From: Bacteroidota bacterium
GTDB lineage: Bacteria > Bacteroidota > Bacteroidia > Bacteroidales > F082
Direction of reading: 5' to 3'
Length of the DNA stretch: 32,761 nt
Assembly: GCA_003232915.1 (NCBI GenBank)
Contig: QIKE01000042.1
Location: 1-32,761, forward strand
Shown here: positions 1 to 16,328 of the stretch, piece by piece
How the letters are laid out: each line of letters starts with the position of its first letter
Numbering within the stretch: position 1 is the first letter of the stretch
Notes under the pieces: generated by a model
Databases searched by the model: none
What the model was told of the DNA's origin: nothing
The model's input: the letters and a program-made list of their open reading frames with translations, nothing else
Program-made: the position numbers and the translations under genes

Positions 1-144
1 CGTTCCTTCGTCTCTTCGTTCCTTCGTCTCTTCGTTCCTTCGTCTCTTCGTTCCTTCGTCTCTTCGTTCCTTCGTCTCTTCGTTCCTTCGTTCCTTCGTC
101 TCTTCGTTCCTTCGTTCCTTCGTCTCTTCGTCTCTTCGTCTCTT
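1..144. repeat. Octamer tandem repeat: 18 units of CGTTCCTT (A) / CGTCTCTT (B)
   Basis: Direct reading gives ABABABABABAABAABBB, 18 x 8 bp = 144 bp, ending at position 144. It starts at the window edge, so it may extend further left. Confidence 0.95.
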
Positions 145-146
145 TT

Positions 147-303
147 GCGGCAGGGATGGTAGTGGCAGCGAGGTGTGGACAAAGCGGAATGGAGGCTGGC
201 GGAGGCAGGGCGACCTAAGAAGCCCCTGAAAACGCCATAGCCGACACCGCTTTGGCCATACCGACTAAAACGGACAGCCCGTGTAGGCTTGTGGGGAGGC
301 CGC
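147..303. ncRNA. Candidate structured non-coding RNA or dispersed structured repeat
   Basis: GC-rich block without an ORF in an AT-rich region. Hand-found nested helices: 147-151/299-303; 172-187/247-262 (16 positions, one G.U and one A.G mismatch); 194-201/233-242 (2-nt bulge); 206-210/224-228; and hairpin 274-279/286-292. Transcription and strand are unknown. Confidence 0.45.
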
Positions 304-370
304 CCAAAAAATATAACTTCCCATTGTTCAGGTGGGTAGCATCTTCAAATTTCCTTTAGATTTTATCCTT

Positions 371-378
371 TATCTTTG
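371..378 (+). promoter_or_regulatory. Bacteroidetes-type -7 element TAnnTTTG (TATCTTTG)
   Basis: TATCTTTG lies 18 nt upstream of the ATG at 397 of the decayed response regulator. Confidence 0.35.
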
Positions 379-16256: not shown

Positions 16257-16328
16257 TGCGGGGTGGAGCAGTGGTAGCTCGGCGGGCTCATAACCCGTAG
16301 GTCGTAGGTTCGAATCCTGCCCCCGCTA
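16257..16328 (+). tRNA. tRNA-Met(CAT), initiator type (fMet)
   Basis: Cloverleaf assigned by hand: acceptor 16257-16263/16321-16327, D-arm GAGC-AGTGGTA-GCTC, anticodon stem CGGG-CTCATAA-CCCG with CAT, T-arm GTAGG-TTCGAAT-CCTGC. Mismatched first pair (T1/T72) and three G:C pairs in the anticodon stem indicate an initiator. CCA is not encoded. Confidence 0.93.

Follow-up and report, generated by a model that had tools for sequence, protein, structure and literature searches.

A dispersed, structured repeat with a Flavo-1-like core and a long arm, probably mobile, upstream of a response-regulator gene in Bacteroidales

The 32,761-nt stretch of DNA analysed here (the window: contig QIKE01000042.1, forward strand, assembly GCA_003232915.1, Bacteroidota bacterium, order Bacteroidales, F082) opens with a pyrimidine-rich tandem array, which is followed by a GC-rich block at 147-304 and then by a response-regulator gene with its ATG at 397, a promoter-like box, TATCTTTG, being placed between the block and the gene. 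The original prediction for this locus, made from the letters alone, was that the block lacks an open reading frame (ORF), is unusually GC-rich and folds into a nested secondary structure, and that it could be either a structured RNA or one of the Bacteroidetes' dispersed structured repeats. The compositional points hold, with 61% GC over 151-300 against ~35-45% further on and the closest listed ORF (at least 80 amino acids) beginning at 376. The block matches no Rfam family, the only Rfam match in the whole window being a tRNA gene at 16257-16328. Here, we describe the block as a member of a repeat family with a conserved, covarying core, and argue with moderate confidence that it represents a non-coding, dispersed and probably mobile repeat, which looks like a long-armed relative of Flavo-1 (RF01705).

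The + strand of 147-304 folds at -67.0 kcal/mol in RNAfold (z = -2.64, equalled by none of 200 dinucleotide shuffles), and the helices previously paired by hand (147-151/299-303, 172-187/247-262, 194-201/233-242 and 206-210/224-228) were all located. The slightly longer piece 140-310 gives z = -2.67 with one of 200 shuffles equally good, DNA folding parameters applied to 147-304 give z = -2.54, and the minus strand of the block folds less well in the shuffle test (z = -1.76). A z of -2.6 is modest if taken alone, and the comparison of copies is the main support for the fold. That comparison also contradicts one part of the original prediction, a separate hairpin at 274-292, which we reject because it competes with the covarying core: bases 275-280 pair with 153-158 (GGG153-155/CCC278-280, U157-A276 and G158-C275), the last of these pairs covarying as GC, UA and AU among 95 sequences, and the core is visible directly in the minimum-energy fold of 147-304.

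The block belongs to a dispersed family, as had been suggested for it. In its own genome (2.53 Mb in 162 contigs, 87% complete), BLAST returns 39 matches to it at E<=10, of which 18 (query included) are at E<1e-4, nearly all matches spanning ~135 nt; the genome holds about 30 recognisable copies, the block among them. A search pattern made of two conserved core halves, with a gap of 75-105 nt, finds 22 matches in this genome and also matches 16 of 60 relatives, mostly draft metagenome-assembled genomes (MAGs), while the reversed control pattern finds none in either; within the genus, 10 of 12 genomes (this one counted) contain the strict pattern, as do some members of the wider family. Relatives hold many more copies than the own genome, and 95 distinct sequences were collected for comparison. 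Members of the family are ~150-200 bases long and lie scattered between genes, which vary from copy to copy and belong to no common class. The own-genome copies comprise a close group of ~18, the product of a recent burst; a second group, in which the 3' part is longer; and divergent singletons that include the window copy. Seven matches among 2.9 million viral contigs bear on carriage by phages. A literature search found no paper describing this long-armed family. A core model (R1) gave no match in the own genome and the window, but as it is unable to bridge the ~100-nt arm this is no evidence of absence.

The core layout is, in order, 3 bp, an A.G, 2 bp, a 3x3 loop GUA/GGA, 2 bp, a second 3x3 loop and 2 bp, and an unguided RNAalifold prediction from 20 own-genome copies recovers the same series, from GGG/CCC through both 3x3 loops to the long arm. 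In the own-genome copies, 98.5% of core cells are paired, four pairs are changed on both sides and the covariation score is 0.279, against 0.104 when shuffled; sliding the partner by 1-3 columns drops the paired cells to 29-50%. Across the 95 sequences, a core pair that the pattern leaves free on both sides occurs as GC 54, UA 22, AU 17 and AC 2 times, and one for which it requires only a 3' purine occurs as CG 52, UA 42 and AG 1, giving three mismatches in 190 cells for the two. The closing helix, P1, is absent from the search pattern; its 5 bp are formed in 80 of 94 elements, compared with 52 when the 5' strands are shuffled among elements (71 against 37 for a strict form), and an alignment of 28 copies has compensatory changes at most arm pairs. 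Covariation among homologous copies, proposed at the outset as a check, thus backs P1, core and arm alike. Single mismatches in the arm are G.T in 43 cases and A.C in 24, compared with 8 and 19 in shuffled arms; this excess of G.T over A.C is what selection for folding of the + strand would produce. The mean folding z is -4.1 on this strand and -2.9 on the other. The mismatch bias fits either RNA or single-stranded DNA (ssDNA) as the folded form, and does not tell the two apart.

The features of the element are collected in Table 1. In the arm, an GCGACnnnnGGAAGC-like sequence comes back in the apical hairpin of diverse copies, and a GA/GA step like the putative one of the block was read by eye in the other subfamilies. 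Many related copies have hairpins between core and P1, which is the basis for the possible P4.

Table 1. Features of the element and its 3' context, in window coordinates
Feature	Position	Strand	Basis or remark
Whole element	147..304	+ (folded strand)	Sharp conservation edges in 18 aligned own-genome copies; family comparison
P1 closing helix, 5' strand GCGGC	147..151	+	Covaries with 299-303
Core, 5' strand GGGAUGGUAGUGGCAG	153..168	+	Minimum-energy fold and covariation
P2 arm helix, 5' strand	172..187	+	Pairing of the original prediction; compensatory changes at most pairs
Putative tandem G.A step, 5' half	192..193	+	Faces 243-244 and adjoins bulged A188-A189; sequence reading
P3 helix, 5' strand	194..201	+	Partners 233-236 and 239-242
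Apical hairpin	206..228	+	Stem ~206-211/222-228; GAC...GAA conserved within loop 212-221
P2 arm helix, 3' strand	247..262	+	Pairing of the original prediction; compensatory changes in copy alignments
Core, 3' strand CUAAAACGGACAGCCC	265..280	+	Minimum-energy fold and covariation; helix and loop order as in the Rfam Flavo-1 consensus
Variable 3' linker, possible small hairpin P4	281..298	+	Separates core from P1; tentative; could compete with P1
P1 closing helix, 3' strand GCCGC	299..303	+	Variants GCAGC/GCTGC, GCACC/GGTGC and GCAGT/ACTGC
Conserved A-rich tail	305-313		Directly 3' of the element
Context outside the element: TATCTTTG, match to the Bacteroidetes -7 box TAnnTTTG	371..378	+	Intergenic stretch kept in relatives

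Rfam models Flavo-1 as an RNA of 76 positions and files it as a gene, of the type small RNA (sRNA); catalogued since 2010, the family has, to our knowledge, been assigned no function. It was among the families to be checked, and the outcome is divided: core and architecture are common to both, but the block does not reach the Rfam gathering cut-off of 42 bits. The window has no Flavo-1 match even at E 10, the best match in the own genome (17 bits, at other places) is at chance level only, and copies at 20 other loci are likewise without an Rfam match. When the Flavo-1 consensus alignment is set beside our fold and covarying pairs, the two have in common the core sequence GAUnGnAGYGGnA ... AnUnnAgCGGAnAGC, the order of the short helices and the two 3x3 loops; both are dispersed in many copies, and in related short-arm copies P1 is likewise present, as is a hairpin that precedes its 3' strand. 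The window element differs in its GC-rich closing helix and in its arm, which is ~100 nt long, GC-rich and has a conserved apical loop of its own, where Flavo-1 has a short, U/A-rich stem inside the core. An independent model, built from own-genome cores only and searched over 12 loci (36 kb) picked by Flavo-1 alone, matched two of them, exactly at the Flavo-1 sites and nowhere else in the 36 kb: L042 (35.4 bits, E 1.6e-6), a locus above the Flavo-1 cut-off, and L044 (30.3 bits, E 2.7e-5), a weaker Flavo-1 match below it. The other 10 loci were unmatched. Scored as Flavo-1, long-arm pattern matches in contigs of Winogradskyella luteola (50.3) and Tenacibaculum soleae (45.9) pass its cut-off. 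Of 399 genomes of the phylum, 29 yielded short-arm elements when searched with the core pattern; these share the closing helix and small 3' hairpin, several of them passing as Flavo-1. Under the Rfam rule the window element thus falls outside Flavo-1, and its architecture is that expected of a long-armed relative. To judge from the long-armed family, the Rfam model seems to represent one short-armed branch of a wider set whose members have a closing helix, hold the core in common and can exchange arms. The search for a Flavo-1 function would then shift towards repeat mobility and promoter-proximal sites and away from one sRNA, with the family offering a defined core, natural variants in large number, and sites that are filled in one sister species and empty in another.

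The ends of the repeat are sharp: among the 18 own-genome copies, pairwise identity climbs from ~0.3 to 1.0 at GCGGC and decays within ~10 A-rich nt past CCGCC. Orthologous sites differ in whether they hold an element, gain and loss being unpolarised. The window site is filled in the own genome (G000) and in G062, G066 and G071, and the same promoter stands without an element in G063 and G065; upstream of rpmG, an element is found at the same place in six species (one cut by a contig end) and in none of five others, and the own genome has a burst copy there at another offset. Arms have been swapped between copies. For 46 of 91 elements the best arm match comes from their own genome, where 9 would be expected, and the window-site arm of G066 has 97% identity to a copy elsewhere in G062 against 94% to the G062 orthologue, which itself combines an arm of that other-site type with a window-type 3' end. 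Amplification together with recombination in the conserved core explains why arms do not track sites. As a separate observation, arms ~99% identical between species, with similar flanks, occur at L076/L100 (G071/G064) and L080/L090 (G063/G061), and reflect either recent transfer or cross-binning of MAGs.

Copies also have a characteristic position relative to promoter boxes, identified here as consensus matches only. Of 77 unique sites in this genus, 33 have a TAnnTTTG box 30-130 nt past the 3' end of the element, reading away from it. Outward-reading boxes on the 5' side occur at 12 of the 77, and inward-reading ones at 4 on the 3' side and 7 on the 5' side. Tandem-gene contexts have little orientation bias (19 versus 15). 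At the window site, because the conserved promoter box falls between the element and the gene, the element probably lies outside the regulator's mRNA; a first impression, that the elements form part of the 5' leader of the gene that follows, was abandoned after the box was found downstream. The proximity to boxes may reflect an insertion preference or a function.

As the mechanism, we propose that the + strand, as RNA or ssDNA, would fold into P1, the core with its two 3x3 purine-rich internal loops, the long arm with its apical loop, and an A-rich 3' end. In the simplest reading, the invariant core and ends would be the recognition signal for a candidate copying enzyme acting in trans, and the arm would be free to vary provided that pairing is kept. 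Inserted copies would persist between genes, in this case just upstream of the promoter of a two-component regulator, where they may have no function for the adjoining gene, and would be reshuffled by recombination in the conserved core. Several points weigh against such a mobile repeat: the Y1 transposase loci examined yielded no mobilising protein, target duplications are absent, gain and loss are unpolarised, copy positions are non-random with respect to the boxes just described, and at some sites several species retain both the element and its structure, so a selected function could exist.

Such a function could be that of a transcribed structured non-coding RNA, present in many copies as it is needed at many loci, a possibility we consider the strongest of the alternatives although distinctly less probable than a mobile repeat. 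The strong covariation, the preference for the + strand, the compensatory arm changes at orthologous sites that retain the structure, and the filing of Flavo-1 as an sRNA gene all speak for it. Boxes reading into the element from the 5' side are rare, however, copy numbers and sites differ between species of one genus, and in Flavobacterium psychrophilum Flavo-1 matches lie sense or antisense to transcribed regions without preference, many of them outside transcribed regions altogether (PMC9723704). The excess of outward-reading boxes past the 3' end, together with the retention of the rpmG and response-regulator sites in several species, would instead suit a promoter-proximal regulatory or insulating element that shields or tunes promoters. 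We regard this as unlikely, as sister species have the same promoters without the element, orientation in tandem contexts is little biased, flavobacterial short-arm copies have a box within 150 nt in only 2 of 30 printed loci, and an insertion preference accounts equally well for the position. An ordinary intrinsic terminator or 5'-UTR (untranslated region) riboswitch of the adjoining gene, to which the stable hairpin next to a gene might point, is hardly credible. The flanks are A-rich 3' on the + strand and T upstream of the 5' end, so the reverse reading also ends in A and there is no T run; the promoter box is downstream of the element at both orthologous site sets examined, and the varied adjoining genes offer no common class. 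Both readings were rejected on flank composition and promoter position.

For a mobile repeat, Y1 (HuH) transposases of the TnpA_REP kind are the obvious candidate enzymes, the more so because subclass 2.6 of the Bacteroidetes has been described with atypical flanking structures (PMC6006769), and such genes occur in the genus. A paired core was nevertheless found within ~1.5 kb of only 1 of 35 PF01797 loci and near none of 30 subclass-2.6-like loci, where the few flanks inspected contain repeats of quite another kind; elements stand on either side of one Y1 gene (contig C23), but ~0.4-1 kb off. REP elements are defined as short hairpins with a 5' GT[AG]G foot (PMC6006769). The element resembles them in being intergenic, repeated, structured and biased to one strand, but is 150-200 nt long rather than ~20-40, has a core unlike the canonical hairpins and ends without the foot, and its copies do not flank a linked TnpA_REP gene, making a REP-type element moved by a Y1 enzyme very unlikely. 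With miniature inverted-repeat elements (MITEs) of DDE transposons it has in common a short non-coding unit, inverted ends and bursts of copies; it differs in the lack of a target duplication in all 18 own-genome burst copies inspected, and in a conserved non-Watson-Crick core and one-strand folding, neither of which an inverted-repeat MITE needs. An TATAGCGGAC shared with repeats beside one G069 Y1 gene had no exact match in the other 29 loci and was taken as coincidence. Subclass-2.6-like TnpA_REP genes at L336/L357 (G069 C29; NHVH...YIHENP in L336) and L358 (G062 C122) are flanked by tandem hairpin repeats of their own, GGTTCAAGCGTCCGCTTGG for example, which have no relation to the window element.

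Elements with the same layout of P1, core and 3' hairpin were also seen in contigs labelled Treponema, Spirochaetales, Spirochaetes and Clostridiales Family XIII (L228, L235, L251, L255, L192, L203 and L229). These contigs may be mis-binned: one 'Clostridia' contig resembles Bacteroidota, and a Shine-Dalgarno test of the contigs labelled as other phyla is suggestive only. A speculative extension, which we consider doubtful, is that Flavo-1, the long-armed family and the spirochaete-labelled copies form one phylum-crossing superfamily of mobile structured elements with exchangeable arms, spreading through a folded single strand by means of a new enzyme, perhaps via RNA copied into DNA, an idea raised because of the A-rich 3' tail and the missing target duplications.

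Around the element, the response-regulator gene (region 397-2290) encodes a receiver domain and is truncated by an in-frame stop (814-816) at a point where the frame stays open in relatives, and the sensor-kinase-like region after it is open only in short pieces; the pair looks decayed, unless these are assembly errors. Directly 5' of the element, window positions 1-144 hold nine copies of a 16-base pyrimidine-rich unit, CGTTCCTTCGTCTCTT, with 92% matches, and relatives have related, shorter C/T-rich stretches at the same site. Across the family, 18% of elements are preceded by 40 nt with a pyrimidine content of 70% or more, against 3-4% in nearby windows of sequence.
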